Source of the DNA: a virus | Virus record (IMG/VR): IMGVR_UViG_3300027822_000033 | Span: 1 to 29,312 of that record | Length of the DNA stretch: 29,312 nucleotides | Reading direction: 5' to 3' (one strand) | Part shown: piece by piece, positions 1 through 29,312 of the stretch | How the letters are laid out: every line of letters starts with the position of its first letter | Numbering within the stretch: position 1 is the first letter of the stretch | The notes under the pieces: model-generated | Told to the model about the DNA's origin: nothing | Databases searched by the model: none | The model's input: only the letters and a program-made list of their open reading frames with translations | Made by a program: the position numbers and the translations under genes

Positions 1-444
1 ACTTATTCCACCAGATTCTTCTACCCAGTTATACTGTGGTGGTACAACTTTAGCTTCTATATTGCTAATTGTTTTTTGAACTTTTAATTTAAGCACTTCA
101 CCTTTTACATAAGGTTCAAGAATATTATTATATGTAAATTGCATAATTTTTGAGTTTATATAGTCATAGCGTATTTTATCCACACCACAAGAGCAATCAA
201 TCTTTTGTGATTGATCTACGAAGTATATTTCTATAATGGCCATTATTAAATATGACTTGTACACTTTGTTATTTTTCACTATTTCTACTACTAAGTTTTT
301 AAAGTCAGAATATTCAATAATACTCTTTATCTTGCTATTCTTTACAAGTTCTTTGACCTGTGCCCTTGTTCTTATACCCATATTATCATATTTACTGTAG
401 CTCCCCCAGTCCTCAGCACTTGTAGTTCCATATTCCATATTCAT
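1..444 (-). CDS. Hypothetical protein, 3' part beyond the window
   Basis: An open frame begins at an ATG whose first base is position 444. It overlaps the stop codon of the upstream M23 peptidase gene in an ATGA arrangement (441-444) and stays open for 148 codons to the left edge, so the C-terminus is missing. The visible part starts MNMEYGTTSAEDWG and is rich in Lys, Ile and Tyr. It has a hydrophobic stretch near residues 64-75 (YLIMAIIEIYFV) and a Cys-Ser-Cys at about 83-85. I recognise no family. The 4-bp overlap suggests translational coupling with the peptidase gene. The function is unknown. Confidence 0.7.
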   Translation of the reverse strand, partial: MNMEYGTTSAEDWGSYSKYDNMGIRTRAQVKELVKNSKIKSIIEYSDFKNLVVEIVKNNKVYKSYLIMAIIEIYFVDQSQKIDCSCGVDKIRYDYINSKIMQFTYNNILEPYVKGEVLKLKVQKTISNIEAKVVPPQYNWVEESGGIS

Positions 445-1067
445 AATTTAACCCACCTTAAAGGATCAACAAACACACCATCCGGTTTTTCTATAGATAA
501 GTGTAAATGTTCACCGGTTGACATTCCTGTGTTACCTTGTCTGCCTATAATACCCTTACTTCCAATTAGTTTGCCTTTACGATAAAACAAACCATCTTTT
601 AACACGTCACCCTCTTTGACATAAATAACTGACATGTGACCATAGCCACTTATCCAACCATCAGTGTGTTTTATTCTTACATATCCACCAAACAATTCAT
701 GTCCTTTATAATACCAATTAGGTACTGGCCAAACATCAAGTACTACTCCATCCTGTGCTATGGGTAATATCTCACAGTGCCAGTGGCCTACAATATCAAG
801 ACCTTTGTGTTTACCTGTTGTTACACCACCTGTGAAAGGGTTAAGTAACTCTCTATAACCAAATGGACTAGTCAATTTATCTAAATGGTGCATAGGACTA
901 GTATACTTGTACACACGTACTTTCTCTGCTTCTTCTTGTGCAAGTATAGAGTTAATAGTACCATGTAGCGCTTTAAGCTCTGCCTCTTGCTCTTTATCAC
1001 TTACCCAGTGACCTTGGATACTTGCTAAAGTAATTATAATTAACAATAGTACTAGTTCTTTGTTCAT
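441..1067 (-). CDS. Secreted M23-family (LytM-like) zinc metallopeptidase
   Basis: A 208-residue protein with an N-terminal hydrophobic export signal or membrane anchor (residues 4-18, ELVLLLIIITLASIQ) followed by an M23 peptidase domain. The zinc-binding motifs are clear: H87-K-G-L-D91, GYGH144 and H187-L-H189 in a TGEHLH context. The family cleaves peptide cross-links in peptidoglycan. The ribosome-binding site is AGGAG, about 8 nt before ATG 1067. It sits in a leftward operon of small unknown genes, not in the rightward lysis cassette some 25 kb away. A lysis endolysin that reaches the wall by the host export system is the simplest reading. A role in cell-wall remodelling or superinfection exclusion is also possible. 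The family call is firm and the role is inferred. Confidence 0.9.
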   Translation of the reverse strand: MNKELVLLLIIITLASIQGHWVSDKEQEAELKALHGTINSILAQEEAEKVRVYKYTSPMHHLDKLTSPFGYRELLNPFTGGVTTGKHKGLDIVGHWHCEILPIAQDGVVLDVWPVPNWYYKGHELFGGYVRIKHTDGWISGYGHMSVIYVKEGDVLKDGLFYRKGKLIGSKGIIGRQGNTGMSTGEHLHLSIEKPDGVFVDPLRWVKL

Positions 1068-3230: not shown

Positions 3231-3402
3231 CTGTAGCGATTGGAGATAATAGAGATTTTAGAGAATGTTAAAATAAAAATAGCTTTTTTGGTCTAAATTA
3301 ACATTTTTATGGAGATATTGGAGATTTATTTCTACCCTTATTTTTGTCTAAATGTTCGTTTTTAGCTCAGCTCTGTTCTGTTAGTGTTCAGCCTTTATCC
3401 TT

Positions 3403-3444
3403 GTCTCTGTCTCTGTCTCTGTCTCTGTCTCTGTCTCTGTCTCT
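3403..3444. repeat. (GTCTCT)7 perfect hexamer microsatellite
   Basis: Seven perfect tandem GTCTCT units, then GGGGCACAGGGC. It lies just beyond the terminator of the leftward gene 3516-3941 and outside any credible gene. Such tracts are prone to slippage, so copy number may vary between isolates. A related CT tract lies at 1526-1562. Confidence 0.95.
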
Positions 3445-3458
3445 GGGGCACAGGGCAA

Positions 3459-3492
3459 ATAAAAAAGCCTACACTTACTATAAGTGTAGGCT
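3459..3492 (-). terminator. Strong rho-independent terminator of the 3516-3941 unit
   Basis: Read leftward, a perfect 12-bp stem AGCCTACACTTA/TAAGTGTAGGCT (plus 3466-3477 and 3481-3492, 3-nt loop) is followed at once by a run of six T (plus 3461-3466). It lies about 24 nt after the stop of the leftward gene at 3516 and should end its transcript. Confidence 0.92.
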
Positions 3493-3515
3493 CTGAATTA
3501 GTAGTTAATTACTAA

Positions 3516-24353: not shown

Positions 24354-26480
24354 ATGAGTGAAAGAGTAACTACAAGATATAATTATAAAGATTTAGTAAG
24401 TACTGGATTAGCATTTTCAGAGGTAGAGATTACTGATGCAGGAGTAGATGCTAATTACTTAACTGATCTGCATGCTTTTTTAGAAGAAGGTTTTAGTCTT
24501 AATACTCAAGCAGATGGTAATGGAACCAATATTACAGATTTTGTGCTCTCTGAAAAGAATAGTCAATTAACAAAAGTATATGGTAAAAATGTGTATGAGA
24601 AGATACAAATAACAAATGTTACTTATCAAACAGGTACAATATACGCAACAGGATATTATTCTGGTGATGTTAATTTTGCTGAATACTTTAATAATCTTCA
24701 AGGTCAAATTGATGAATTATTAACTGGTACATCTAAAATGTTACTTAGCCAATTATCTTATTTTCCTACATACAAGGATAGATCAGCATATGGTCTTTTA
24801 GCATTTACGCATGATAGTTTTTCACAGGCTAATTATCAAGGTTTATTTGATGAAATAGGACATATTTATAACAGTATGCACGTAGAAGCTGGAGGAGCAG
24901 ACCTATCAGCCTCCAGTACATTATTTTATGCTACACCAATTCCCGGATACTATGAACGTGGGGGGACTCAAGATACAGTAGCTATAGACTCAACAACAGA
25001 TGTTGATGCTTCAACAGAACTTATTACTCTTTCAACAGCCGATTACAATGCTCTGTACATGACAAGAGGTGTACTTGGCACAGGTGCAAATGGTGTTCCT
25101 GTTCGACTTAAATTAGTATCAGGTGCTTTGCCGAATGGTCTTGCAATTGACACAACTTACTTTGTACGGTTTAAGACTACACCAGATATTGAACTTTATG
25201 ATACAGAAGCACATTCAATAAATACAGCATCAACAACAGGAAGAGTTGGTTTAACTGATGCAGTAGGCACTTTTAAAATTACACAGGAAGGTATTGTTTT
25301 AGATGATGCTTTTCAGGGACATTGGCACGATTTATCAGGAGTAGGAACAGTAGGAAGCGAAGCTAGATGGGGTAATACAGCAATAAATGGTAATCCAACA
25401 TCAGACATTCAAGCGGCTGAGGCAAAAAATGCTATAGCCGATTCTGTAAATGGCACACCACGAACATCCAATGAAACTCGACCTAAAACATTTATATCTT
25501 TTGGCTATATAAAAGCAGAACATGTTACTACTTCAGGTGAACCTATAAGTGCTTTAAGGTATGACACAGGATGGATTGCTAATAGTGACTGGACAGATTT
25601 TAATTTAATTATAAATCATGGTTTATCTGCTCATTTGAGTAATTTAGAAGTAGAGTTCACAATTTCAGAAGATGGTACAGATGCTACATCATTTAGAGTA
25701 AGTCCATCACATTCTTATCCTGGGTCTGGTGCTGAGCATACCGGATATACTTATTATGAAATAGATAATAAAAATATTGAAATACAAACTGGTAGAGATG
25801 GTGTTTATTATACCAAAAAGCCAGATGGACTAGGTGCTTATTTAGATACAGAGTCATGGTATTACAAAGTAGTAATAACCAAACCAAACCTAGTAGCAAC
25901 TTATGCAGATACTTCCTTTCGTAAAGTTTATGACATATCAGATGCAACGGATTATACTTTCACTCTGCCGGATGCAAGCACACAGTTGACAGAATATAAT
26001 ATTAAACGAACAGGTGCAGGAGCGGGAACAGTAACAGTCACAGCAAGTGGAAGTGATACTATAGAAGGTTCAAGTGCTGATTACGTTATTAGAGGTGACG
26101 AGACTCTTCGCATAATACCAAATGGAACTAATTGGGCTATAGTAAGTACTAATGAAAAGAGAGTATGCAAAGCATGGGTTAATTTTGATGGAACTACAAA
26201 TACAGCGGGAAAATGTACTATAAGAGATAGCTATAATGTATCGAGTGTAGATGATCTAGGAACTGGGAAATATCAAGTAAATCTAATAAATGCTATGAGT
26301 GATACTAACTATAGTATTGTCGTAACTTCTAACACTGGGCTAACGTATGCAGGCAGGACTTCACCAGCAACAACCACATATCTAGCTCCTACAACAACAT
26401 CATTTATAATTTCAAATGCATCTGTAATAGCAGAAGGCTTGAATGCTGCTTATATTTCAGCTCAAGTATTTGGATCATAA
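24354..26480 (+). CDS. Tail fibre with collar-type domain
   Basis: A 708-residue protein with GGAGGAG 8 nt before ATG 24354. The N-terminal 150 residues are unique (virion attachment). At about 150-320 a collar-like domain is interrupted by a beta-rich insert (206-308) before the hallmark QGHWHDLSG at about 320 and ETRPKTFISFGYIKA at about 373, motifs of phage tail collar fibres. A second region (about 380-500) is strand-rich. The C-terminal 100 residues (VCKAWVNFDGTTNTAGKCTI, VSSVDDLGTGKYQVNLINAM) match a domain that I recall at the end of many receptor-binding fibres. It should be the main host-recognition fibre. Only the domain roles are inferred. Confidence 0.8.
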   Translation: MSERVTTRYNYKDLVSTGLAFSEVEITDAGVDANYLTDLHAFLEEGFSLNTQADGNGTNITDFVLSEKNSQLTKVYGKNVYEKIQITNVTYQTGTIYATGYYSGDVNFAEYFNNLQGQIDELLTGTSKMLLSQLSYFPTYKDRSAYGLLAFTHDSFSQANYQGLFDEIGHIYNSMHVEAGGADLSASSTLFYATPIPGYYERGGTQDTVAIDSTTDVDASTELITLSTADYNALYMTRGVLGTGANGVPVRLKLVSGALPNGLAIDTTYFVRFKTTPDIELYDTEAHSINTASTTGRVGLTDAVGTFKITQEGIVLDDAFQGHWHDLSGVGTVGSEARWGNTAINGNPTSDIQAAEAKNAIADSVNGTPRTSNETRPKTFISFGYIKAEHVTTSGEPISALRYDTGWIANSDWTDFNLIINHGLSAHLSNLEVEFTISEDGTDATSFRVSPSHSYPGSGAEHTGYTYYEIDNKNIEIQTGRDGVYYTKKPDGLGAYLDTESWYYKVVITKPNLVATYADTSFRKVYDISDATDYTFTLPDASTQLTEYNIKRTGAGAGTVTVTASGSDTIEGSSADYVIRGDETLRIIPNGTNWAIVSTNEKRVCKAWVNFDGTTNTAGKCTIRDSYNVSSVDDLGTGKYQVNLINAMSDTNYSIVVTSNTGLTYAGRTSPATTTYLAPTTTSFIISNASVIAEGLNAAYISAQVFGS

Positions 26481-26490
26481 GGAGAACATA

Positions 26491-27066
26491 GTGTATAAAG
26501 AAGCAATAACAGCCGATTGGATAACAGAACCTATAACAGATACTCAGTATGCAATTGAAGAGTATGAAGATAAAATAGTTATTAAGTTTCAAGGGTCATG
26601 CTCAAAACTTGACTGGCTTCAAAACTTTGACTTTTTGGTTAAACCATATAAGCACATGGAGAAAGTGTTCTTTGTTCATCGTGGGTTTTTAAAAAAGTGG
26701 AAGGCCGTAAAAGATGATATAATTCCTAAAGTAATTTTTAAGCACAAGGTTATTCAGATATTAGGCTATTCTCAAGGTGGAGCTTTAGCACAACTTTGCC
26801 ATGAGTATATTTATTTTCATACAAAGATTCAGCCAAATACAATAGTGTTTGGTAGTCCAAGAGTATTTGGATTTTGGCAGAGTAAACTATTAAAAAGTAG
26901 ATTATCGAATGTGATAAGATATGAGAATGGAAATGACATAGTGCCAAGTTTACCTTGGTTTTGGTTAGGATTTAAACATTATGGAAAGTTAACACATATA
27001 GGCAAAAAGCAATGTGTGCTTCGCTTTTCAATAAAAGATCATTTAAACTATGAAAAGAATTTGTAA
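26491..27066 (+). CDS. Class-3 lipase-like alpha/beta hydrolase
   Basis: The start is GTG 26491, with AAGGAG about 9 nt before it. The open frame extends to 26443, but that part lies inside the fibre gene. The 191-residue product has a lipase signature: G92-Y-S94-Q-G-G nucleophile elbow, D149 in GNDIVPSLP, and H184 in DHLNY, in correct order and spacing for a Ser-Asp-His triad. FVHRGFLKKWKAVKDDI is also typical of Lipase_3. There is no signal peptide. It begins 10 nt after the fibre stop and opens the lysis-like cassette. It could hydrolyse lipid or envelope esters during lysis, or be a tail-tip enzyme. Catalytic class is well supported, biological role is not. Confidence 0.85.
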   Translation: MYKEAITADWITEPITDTQYAIEEYEDKIVIKFQGSCSKLDWLQNFDFLVKPYKHMEKVFFVHRGFLKKWKAVKDDIIPKVIFKHKVIQILGYSQGGALAQLCHEYIYFHTKIQPNTIVFGSPRVFGFWQSKLLKSRLSNVIRYENGNDIVPSLPWFWLGFKHYGKLTHIGKKQCVLRFSIKDHLNYEKNL

Positions 27067-27077
27067 GGAGAAAGGTT

Positions 27078-27341
27078 ATGGTGATAACAGAGAAAACTAA
27101 TTTTAAAATAAGTATTGCTACGTTTGTAACCGTTTTAATATTTATTGTTTCAACAGTTTATCAAACAGCAGTCTGGAAAACTGAAATGGAAAAGAATGTA
27201 GAGCAGAATCATATAGAGATACTGAAGACAGAAGAGATCCAGAATCTTGTTGTTATAAAACAGTCTCAACAAAATGCTGTGTTTGCAGAGATAAAGACAG
27301 ACCTTAGATGGATAAGAGCGAAACTTGAGGAGATAAAATAA
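27078..27341 (+). CDS. Small membrane protein with coiled coil (87 aa)
   Basis: An 87-residue protein starting MVITEKTNFKISIATFVTVL, with AAGGAG upstream. One clear transmembrane segment (residues about 10-30, ISIATFVTVLIFIVSTVYQ) is followed by a long charged helix (EKNVEQNHIEILKTEEIQNL to DLRWIRAKLEEIK). The layout resembles small phage membrane proteins of the holin/hemolysin-accessory kind. No enzyme motif is present. It sits between the lipase and the cysteine-peptidase-like gene in the lysis cassette. It may be an anti-holin, a pinholin-like partner or an accessory membrane factor; none of these is shown by the sequence. Confidence 0.65.
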   Translation: MVITEKTNFKISIATFVTVLIFIVSTVYQTAVWKTEMEKNVEQNHIEILKTEEIQNLVVIKQSQQNAVFAEIKTDLRWIRAKLEEIK

Positions 27342-27342
27342 C

Positions 27343-27795
27343 GTGTTGTTCCAAACTGATCCAGAGCTACAATTTAATGCAAAATCTGATTGCTATTTAT
27401 TTGATATATTGAAGATTCATGAACTTGTTGGTAAGCATGAGTTTACCAGAGAACAAATAAGAGATATTAGAAGAGTATCAGTTAGAACTAATTTCATGGG
27501 AAAGGATGGTTACCTAAATGCAAAGGGTATCTCAGGTATTTCAATGGTTGCTTCGGGGCTTACAGGATATAATGTATACATGCGTAGAGTGGGGAGCAAT
27601 AGTAACTATAATTACATTATTGCTGAGTATCAGCGGAGGATTGATAGTAGCAGCATGGTTGATCACTTCGTTTTGGCTAACTTTGAACAACCTAATAAGG
27701 TAGTAGATTATGATCCTTGGAGTTTCTTTGGAAGTAGAACAGTAAGAGAAGGAAACATTGTAGGTTTCCGTTACATTTTTGCAGAGGCGGTATGA
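27343..27795 (+). CDS. Papain/C39-like cysteine peptidase-like protein, possible endolysin
   Basis: The GTG start at 27343 has GAGGAG upstream. The 150-residue product begins MLFQTDPELQFNAKSDCYLF, with C17 in an early helix, H108 in DHFVLANFEQPNKVV, and D122/D124 in VDYDPW. A Cys-helix, then His-Phe-Val strand, then Asp-Pro is the layout of C39-like/papain-fold peptidases. There is no export signal. The length and style recall, unverified, a DUF261-type family I associate with spirochaetes. The slot just before a holin is where endolysins sit, so wall cleavage is plausible. The catalytic role is inferred. A frame inside this gene (27518) is listed in the findings. Confidence 0.6.
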   Translation: MLFQTDPELQFNAKSDCYLFDILKIHELVGKHEFTREQIRDIRRVSVRTNFMGKDGYLNAKGISGISMVASGLTGYNVYMRRVGSNSNYNYIIAEYQRRIDSSSMVDHFVLANFEQPNKVVDYDPWSFFGSRTVREGNIVGFRYIFAEAV

Positions 27796-28008: not shown

Positions 28009-28202
28009 CATCAATATATTGTCCTTATTGTGGATCAGATAATATTGATACTTTAGGGAGGTGTAGTAGATGTGGAAATTATTATCAATTTGTAAGACAG
28101 GATGATTCAGGTTATGATCCAATTATACAATTGCCTATAACTCGAACTTTACATATAAAAATAGGTAAAGTTAATCAGCTAATGCCTTTGGAGGGAAAAT
28201 GA
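28005..28202 (+). CDS. Zinc-ribbon protein (65 aa)
   Basis: A 65-residue protein starting MTSIYCPYCGSDNIDTLGRC. C6-x2-C9 and C20-x2-C23 form a four-cysteine zinc ribbon, followed by a short strand-rich tail. It overlaps the holin stop by 4 bp and ends on the ATG of the next gene (28199-28202, ATGA), so it is translationally coupled in the lysis cassette. Zinc ribbons of this size usually bind nucleic acid or a protein partner. No lysis role is known to me, so its placement here is unusual. Confidence 0.75.
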   Translation: MTSIYCPYCGSDNIDTLGRCSRCGNYYQFVRQDDSGYDPIIQLPITRTLHIKIGKVNQLMPLEGK

Positions 28203-28681
28203 AATGGTTAAGACATTCTTTTATGGTTTATTTGTGGGTTGTATTGTTGCTGGCATTTGCTGGTGGAGCATGGGGAGAAACGACCTTAGACAAATACGAT
28301 CGGATTACCAGAGATCTTCAGAAGATCTCCAACGAGTACAACGAAATATCAGTGAACTCTCAACTAACTCTACAAGATTTGCAGGAGATATTACCACAAT
28401 TAACGCAACGAGTAAACGGATTGCAGACAGAAGTGAACGGATTGATCAAGGACTCACAAGACTTAACGGAGACTTCGGAGGGGTTATTACAAAAGTGGAT
28501 CAACTTGAAGAATGGAATAGACAATCTCTCATCCTCAATAGAGACTTTGGGGACAAGCTTTACGATTTTAGACAGCTCAATAAAGAGAGCAGAAAGGAAG
28601 AGTAATACAGGTTTAGCAATAGCAATTATTGCTGCTGTCCTAGCTGCTATTGCAGCAGGATATAGCATATTTAGTAAATAA
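28199..28681 (+). CDS. Exported coiled-coil protein with C-terminal membrane anchor (outer frame)
   Basis: A 160-residue protein starting MKWLRHSFMVYLWVVLLLAF, an export signal likely cleaved near AWG-E (about residue 26). Residues 28-130 are an almost uninterrupted coiled coil (LTLQDLQEILPQLTQRVNGL, LQTEVNGLIKDSQDL). Residues about 139-158 (LAIAIIAAVLAAIAAGYSIF) are a transmembrane segment. It lacks a lipobox cysteine. The layout (exported, coil, C-terminal anchor) resembles a unimolecular spanin without lipid anchor. GGAGG lies only 4 nt before its ATG. The frame wholly contains a second coiled-coil gene (28204-28605). Membrane fusion at lysis is inferred. Confidence 0.75.
   Translation: MKWLRHSFMVYLWVVLLLAFAGGAWGETTLDKYDRITRDLQKISNEYNEISVNSQLTLQDLQEILPQLTQRVNGLQTEVNGLIKDSQDLTETSEGLLQKWINLKNGIDNLSSSIETLGTSFTILDSSIKRAERKSNTGLAIAIIAAVLAAIAAGYSIFSK
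28204..28605 (+). CDS. Membrane coiled-coil protein embedded in another frame (spanin-like)
   Basis: A 133-residue protein starting MVKTFFYGLFVGCIVAGICW in the +2 frame relative to the 28199 gene and lying entirely inside it. The first 24 residues are one transmembrane segment with a Cys13 in FVGC, close to but not matching a lipobox (position -3 is Phe). Residues 27-130 are a coiled coil with charged faces (DLRQIRSDYQRSSEDLQRVQ and later ITKVDQLEE). The ribosome-binding GGAGG is 9 nt before this ATG, better than for the outer frame. Embedded spanin genes in other phages (lambda Rz1) are known, so a two-gene spanin is the leading reading. Confidence 0.65.
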   Translation: MVKTFFYGLFVGCIVAGICWWSMGRNDLRQIRSDYQRSSEDLQRVQRNISELSTNSTRFAGDITTINATSKRIADRSERIDQGLTRLNGDFGGVITKVDQLEEWNRQSLILNRDFGDKLYDFRQLNKESRKEE

Positions 28682-28692
28682 CGGAGGAAAAG

Positions 28693-29312
28693 ATGGGAAT
28701 AGCTGATGATATTAGTGTAGCTGCTAATGGGGATATAAGACATGCTGCGGGGACAGATAATTACAGGGTTCTTGAATTACACAGATTTTTGCAGGATTTG
28801 GCTGATGATGCTGTAGCGTCAGGAGATGATTTATTAGATATTACGAGTCCAGATCCCTCCGCCAGATCTACTGATAATATTATTACATTATTAGGAAATT
28901 ATAATATTGATGATGATTTAGCTAAATATCTGTATGATGGTTCAATTGTTCAAGGAACCGGTGCATCAGAAGTAATGTATGCAGGACTTGAAATTGTTGG
29001 TTCTCTTTTTGGGACTACAACTCTACAAGTTGTACAAAATAATGCTTTATATGATACAGATAGTCCTTTTTGGGATACAGGAATTAATGTTGATGCAACA
29101 GCTAATATACTTTGTCGAATGTTAATCAAGGTGAAGATTGCCGGAGCTGATATTGATAGGAAAAAAATAAGAGTATTTGCTCGAGAATGGGGACATACTT
29201 ATGCTGAATTTAGTGTAACAATGGGACTTGGTGTATCGATAGCAGCTATATTTACTAATGAAGATTTGAATAATAAAACTGCTCAAGGGACTTTAGCTGG
29301 ATGGACAACTAT
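28693..29312 (+). CDS. Structural-looking protein, 3' end beyond the window
   Basis: The start is ATG 28693 with GGAGG 5 nt before it, 11 nt after the preceding stop. The frame is open to the right edge, 206 codons visible (MGIADDISVAANGDIRHAAG). The sequence is Asp/Gly-rich with LHRFLQDLADDAVASGDDLL near 29-48, SARSTDNIITLLGNYNIDDD near 57-76, and beta-rich sections such as VFAREWGHTYAEFSV. I recall this type of protein as a virion component seen in many phages of aquatic and gut habitats, possibly a tail or fibre protein, but I cannot name a function. It follows the lysis cassette in the same rightward operon. Confidence 0.7.
   Translation, partial: MGIADDISVAANGDIRHAAGTDNYRVLELHRFLQDLADDAVASGDDLLDITSPDPSARSTDNIITLLGNYNIDDDLAKYLYDGSIVQGTGASEVMYAGLEIVGSLFGTTTLQVVQNNALYDTDSPFWDTGINVDATANILCRMLIKVKIAGADIDRKKIRVFAREWGHTYAEFSVTMGLGVSIAAIFTNEDLNNKTAQGTLAGWTT

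Follow-up and report, generated by a model that had tools for sequence, protein, structure and literature searches.

Two coiled-coil membrane proteins in overlapping frames of a phage gene cassette: a possible spanin-like pair without a lipid anchor

The locus and its surroundings

The window, a complete IMG/VR record of 29,312 bases, is a linear piece of tailed-phage DNA that carries TerL, portal, tape measure and tail genes. Close to its right end two reading frames of the same strand, here called A and B, share one stretch of DNA (Table 1). B, 402 nt long including its stop codon, lies entirely within A at a frame offset of two. Both frames, and the GGAGG site before them, had been picked out in an earlier sequence-only reading whose coordinates, frames and lengths all proved correct on recheck. 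An antisense open reading frame at 28360-28743 was dismissed as a by-product. Far from the pair, in a gene-poor region of the window, positions 3344-3496 form a simple repeat, one frame of which reads as SLSLSL repeats.

Table 1. Features of the A/B locus and its cassette, with the partner protein of a comparable pair (positions are those of the window unless another locus is named)
Feature	Position	Strand	Remarks
Class 3 lipase	26443..27066	+	Pfam Lipase_3; counterparts L005:4468-5169(-), L104:9064-9687
Protein with N-terminal transmembrane (TM) segment, 87 aa	27078..27341	+	weak match to Rz-like spanin PHROG, E 0.002
DUF261-like protein	27343..27795	+	homologue L004:2162-2641(-), which matches DUF261 full length, E 9e-5, just under cut-off
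Small membrane protein, holin candidate, 69 aa	27799..28008	+	no firm family match
Zinc-ribbon protein, 65 aa	28005..28202	+	Pfam Zn_ribbon_3 E 1.6e-4, under cut-off; absent here in L004
GGAGG Shine-Dalgarno site	28190..28194	+	4 nt to A's ATG, 9 nt to B's ATG
ATGAAATGG double start	28199..28207	+	ATGA overlaps upstream stop; second ATG (28204) begins B
Frame A	28199..28681	+	160 aa; homologue L004:1447-1956(-)
A residues 1-26, predicted signal peptide without Cys	28199..28276	+	KD peak residues 8-26, 1.92
A residues 139-157, C-terminal hydrophobic segment	28613..28669	+	KD 2.43; coded entirely past B's stop
Frame B	28204..28605	+	133 aa, nested in A; homologue L004:1532-1951(-)
B residues 4-23, predicted N-terminal TM segment	28213..28272	+	contains Cys13 and Cys19; Cys not conserved
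L106 partner protein	L106:6255-6704	-	signal peptide, long helix, C-terminal part like four beta strands, ...GVGVKF

The genes before the pair form a cassette that runs from the lipase through a membrane ORF, the cell-wall-enzyme candidate and the small membrane protein to the pair itself, an order common to the window and to two of the loci introduced below, L004 and L104. The class 3 lipase, kept in the cassette in three phages (window, L004/L005 and L104), could attack envelope lipids. At the place of the ORF that follows it, L004 has an ORF with a weak XhlA-like match. In the DUF261-like protein Cys, His and Asp-Pro-Trp are conserved between the window and L004, and we regard it as a candidate cell-wall enzyme, possibly papain-like; its structure model (pLDDT 43) was too poor for use, and a search of plasmids with it gave no match. 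DUF261 is known mainly from spirochaetes, which serves as a hint of the host only. The holin candidate has counterparts at the same position, of 70 aa in L004, directly before A/B, and of 81 aa in L104. Holin and cell-wall enzyme are candidates on the strength of topology for the former and of a sub-threshold DUF261 match for the latter. A second cell-wall-enzyme candidate is provided by M23 peptidase genes, encoded on the other strand at 441-1067 (-) in the window and L104:13626-14093 (-).

Relatives

Scans of viral contigs with A, B and the lipase as single proteins found no relatives of any of them, and tblastn with the two proteins of the pair, run on 50,697 phages, gave no match. Scanning with a conserved tail protein recovered G001 and G002, records nearly identical to each other; a scan with TerL added a single distant TerL only. 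In G002 (48.9 kb), a distant relative, an A/B pair is present at 44.4-44.9 kb (locus L004), both frames being open over their full length and encoding A' of 169 aa and B' of 139 aa from the ATG. A and A' are 28% identical (BLASTP 1e-11), B and B' 30% (BLASTP 2e-11). Tail-fibre gene sequence occurs at both ends of the G002 contig (L003, L005), which suggests that the genome is nearly complete and either circular or terminally redundant.

A search with a tail-fibre fragment led to a further set of loci, L104-L109. The pair in L104 and L105 consists of a 110-aa protein with an N-terminal TM segment and a 127-aa protein with a signal peptide, a coil and a C-terminal TM segment, overlapping by 245 nt. 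The two topologies match those of B and A, and the pair has the same place in the cassette and the same +1 register; it has no detectable sequence similarity to A/B, so that the resemblance consists in these three features. Chance would produce the L104 overlap, taken by itself, in only 0-4% of shuffles, a moderately low rate; the two records that hold it are identical there. In L106 a coil protein with an N-terminal TM segment is followed by a signal-peptide coil protein, adjoining a clear amidase endolysin. Coordinates show that at all four loci (window, L004, L104 and L106) the partner's frame is +1 to that of the N-terminal TM protein. The L106 partner is a possible beta-anchored o-spanin: in its structure model the helix is confident and the C-terminal part falls below a pLDDT of 50, so that a beta anchor is only suggested. 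Many overlaps in the GC-rich L108 and L109 were set aside as composition artefacts. L107, from a 146-kb record with the tail-fibre motif, has a NUMOD3-containing, homing-endonuclease-like gene near its tail genes (L107:13671-14633).

A host search with TerL in bacterial genomes returned matches of 30-46% only, scattered over many phyla, and no host was therefore assigned; two other phage genes (12052-13293 and the G002 polymerase) indicate differing hosts. That the host has an outer membrane is a presumption.

Predicted anatomy

The topologies given here are predictions of signal peptide, TM segment and coiled coil that rest on hydropathy (KD) and on periodicity computed for this analysis. A opens with a basic start that precedes hydrophobic residues 8-26; its mature end lies approximately at ETTLDKY, with ESSLDQY as the aligned counterpart in L004. 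A region with marked heptad-range periodicity follows, and after it the hydrophobic segment close to the C-terminus, which is found also in the A of L004 (KD 1.64) and in the L104 analogue (KD 2.51). B is hydrophobic from its N-terminus to about residue 23, with peaks of 1.86 in the window and 2.07 in L004, and periodic over the remainder to its C-terminus. For both proteins, in the window and in L004, heptad-range periodicity exceeds that of essentially all of 2000 residue shuffles, and the hydrophobic segments and periodic regions of the L004 proteins are arranged as in the window. Hydropathy and heptad periodicity thus agree with the membrane segments and coiled coils first described for both frames.

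The same description had A lacking a lipobox, and this was borne out in the window, L004 and L104. A of the window is altogether without Cys; Cys10 of A in L004 sits within LVMVC, which is not a lipobox. Neither mature A nor mature B carries a periplasmic Cys: the Cys of A in L004 is within its signal peptide, Cys13 and Cys19 of B are both within the TM segment, and B in L004 has no Cys. A rule-based scan of all frames of the window, under a strict rule, found no lipoproteins.

Two frames under selection

Has one stretch of DNA been held to two proteins at once? Alternative same-strand frames of 19 other genes in the window stay free of stops for at most 61 codons, against 134 at A/B. For codon nulls one protein was kept while synonymous codons were either redrawn from phage usage or shuffled among its own codons, with 2000 trials each. 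On redrawing, the other frame was open in 0/2000 in both directions and both phages, B's frame acquiring a mean of 17 stops when A was kept; on own-codon shuffling it was open in 0-31/2000 over the same directions and phages, the window giving 0 and 7/2000. Similarity was assessed with the same two nulls, on the presumption of saturated silent sites, and none of the 2000 trials in each direction reproduced that of the other protein under either model: B against B' scores 108, with null maxima of 89 and 83 when A' is kept, and A against A' scores 144, with maxima of 89 and 116 when B' is kept. Third-position identity between the window and L004 is 0.39-0.40 in the neighbouring lipase and DUF261-like genes, in line with that presumption, and inertia of the DNA is therefore not the cause of the conservation at A/B. 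As a control, the equally diverged DUF261-like gene (34% identity) scored 29-35 when its frame was shifted and met 7-26 stops; by the same measure the A/B overlap scored 117-120 and was free of stops.

These comparisons, between two independent sequences only, show two coding frames under selection at A/B. The proposal that both frames encode protein is upheld, since both are open and conserved in L004 beyond the codon nulls and the shifted-frame controls; a relative with one frame broken, which would have told against it, was looked for, and L004 keeps both.

Starts and translation signals

The two starts are 5 nt apart. The ATGAAATGG that holds them is identical in L004, though the gene upstream differs: the stop codon that A's ATG overlaps belongs to the zinc-ribbon gene in the window and to the small membrane gene in L004, and because this overlap is kept with different upstream genes A is probably translated by coupling. 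It had been suggested that a single Shine-Dalgarno site serves the locus and favours the inner frame, and the spacings agree, 9 nt for B against 4 nt for A in the window and 7 nt against 2 nt from the equivalent GGAG in L004. It is likely that B is started from this site and A by coupling to the stop of the preceding gene.

A spanin-like reading and its alternatives

On balance, and with confidence only a little above even, we read A and B as a spanin-like lysis pair, in which B would serve as the inner-membrane spanin and A would fill the o-spanin's position. B would be a type II inner-membrane protein, its N-terminus inside and its coiled coil in the periplasm, as in an i-spanin. A would be exported by a cleavable signal peptide, have a periplasmic coiled coil of its own and be held by its C-terminal hydrophobic segment; it would occupy the o-spanin position by virtue of its +1 register to B and of an anchor coded past B's stop. 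With B translated from the Shine-Dalgarno site 9 nt upstream and A coupled to the upstream stop, the holin and the cell-wall enzyme would act first; the coils of A and B would then come together and collapse, in the manner proposed for spanins, and thereby contribute to disruption of the outer envelope. We infer the lysis role, the formation of a complex, the order of events, the membrane that receives A's C-terminus and the coupling. The hydrophobicity of A's C-terminal segment would suffice for a halt in the inner membrane, in which case both proteins may share one membrane and bridge nothing.

A broader and more tentative proposal, to which we would give slightly less than even credence, is that of a spanin system without any lipid anchor, in which an i-spanin works with an exported coiled-coil partner whose C-terminus is held in the envelope. 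As a joint claim it would have the partner's anchor alpha-helical here and in L104 and possibly beta-barrel-like in L106, with one lineage having its genes nested and their starts 5 nt apart.

The proteins may of course be real and have nothing to do with spanins. They could be a type I and a type II protein of the cytoplasmic membrane, displayed on its outer face, with a role in controlling the holin or the cell-wall enzyme, or in keeping out superinfecting phage. Both anchors resemble inner-membrane helices and no outer-membrane anchor was detected in either protein; the neighbouring ORF at 27078 also has an N-terminal TM segment, and the XhlA-like match of the L004 ORF at its place points the same way. 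However, coiled coils, a nested +1 register and a place behind a small membrane gene in three phages suit spanins better, as does the amidase endolysin that adjoins the comparable pair of L106, and we consider such a regulatory or exclusion role unlikely, if worth keeping in mind.

The outer envelope might instead be disrupted by the class 3 lipase, with A and B merely assisting or spacing the membranes. In mycobacteriophages it is the LysB esterase that disrupts the outer envelope, and the window, L004/L005 and L104 each have a Lipase_3 gene in this cassette. Such a role for the lipase would not account for the selection on a nested pair of coiled-coil membrane proteins, however, and L106 shows by eye only a short lipase-like N-terminal fragment with no family match; we think this improbable.

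Less probable again is the reversed anchoring put forward in the sequence-only reading, which would place B, lipidated at Cys13, in the outer membrane and A in the inner one. The C-terminal TM segment of A does resemble the inner-membrane end of a u-spanin, and Cys13 sits in FVGC, which appears among the catalogued deviant lipoboxes of o-spanins (PMC6139136). Yet position 13 is Ile in L004 (LTGI), which keeps both proteins, the h-region between Lys3 and Cys13 has 9 residues only, and the hydrophobic stretch runs on past Cys13 (IVAGICWW) in the manner of a TM helix, so that lipidation of B is not supported. That a single frame is real and the other open by chance or composition, the overlap being richer in G+C (0.40 vs 0.34) and so expected to have fewer stops, is already contradicted by the similarity nulls in either direction, the shifted-frame controls and the conserved double start.

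Comparison with known spanins

Family searches lend the spanin-like reading modest help: the best PHROG match of B is an Rz-like spanin family (E 5e-4), a weak match of a kind generally unreliable for coiled coils, and that of the B-like protein in L104 is likewise weak. Of the features by which spanins are known, the N-terminal TM segment and periplasmic domain of an i-spanin are predicted for B in the window and in L004, and the overlapping gene in another register of a two-component spanin is present over 402 nt with both frames selected. The lipobox of an outer-membrane o-spanin lipoprotein is missing from A in the window, L004 and L104, and B's FVGC is not conserved; a periplasmic cysteine for a covalent dimer is missing in the window and L004. 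Of the two marks of a unimolecular spanin A lacks the N-terminal lipobox and has the C-terminal TM segment (residues 139-157). Since the outer-membrane lipoprotein, the periplasmic cysteine and the u-spanin lipobox are all wanting, the pair is not filed as a spanin: the layout of a spanin-like pair, as first proposed, stands, and membership does not. Catalogued spanins depend on a lipid anchor, and to judge from its residues the A/B pair carries none; it seems only slightly better than an even bet that the pair is a lipid-free variant that works like a spanin without being a member.

The embedded Rz/Rz1 genes of lambda resemble it: there, too, a single piece of DNA specifies two envelope proteins in different frames, after a holin gene (a holin candidate in the window), with the second frame +1 to the i-spanin frame and one protein having an N-terminal TM segment and a coiled coil. 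They differ in that here the i-spanin-like frame is the inner and shorter one, starting 5 nt after the other, and the partner A is not a lipoprotein, having a Cys-less signal peptide and a C-terminal anchor, with no periplasmic Cys in the pair. With the unimolecular spanin of T1, gp11, A shares an N-terminal export signal, a C-terminal TM segment and the lack of a periplasmic Cys; unlike gp11 it has no lipobox, its coil is predicted to be alpha-helical where gp11 has a beta-rich domain, and its DNA also encodes another protein.

At the least, the locus offers a clean example of selection maintaining two long membrane proteins on shared DNA, their start codons 5 nt from each other. In 91/677 phage genomes of Gram-negative hosts there is no recognisable spanin, recognition resting on the lipobox (PMC6139136), and a recurrent lipobox-free pair offers a new target for spanin searches in such genomes. 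Kongari and colleagues named type I inner-membrane proteins and outer-membrane proteins as possible, unexamined spanins, and gave no example (PMC6139136). A fits the type I topology of that suggestion, the L106 partner ends in what a low-confidence model gives as a possible beta-type anchor, and A and B make the suggestion directly testable.
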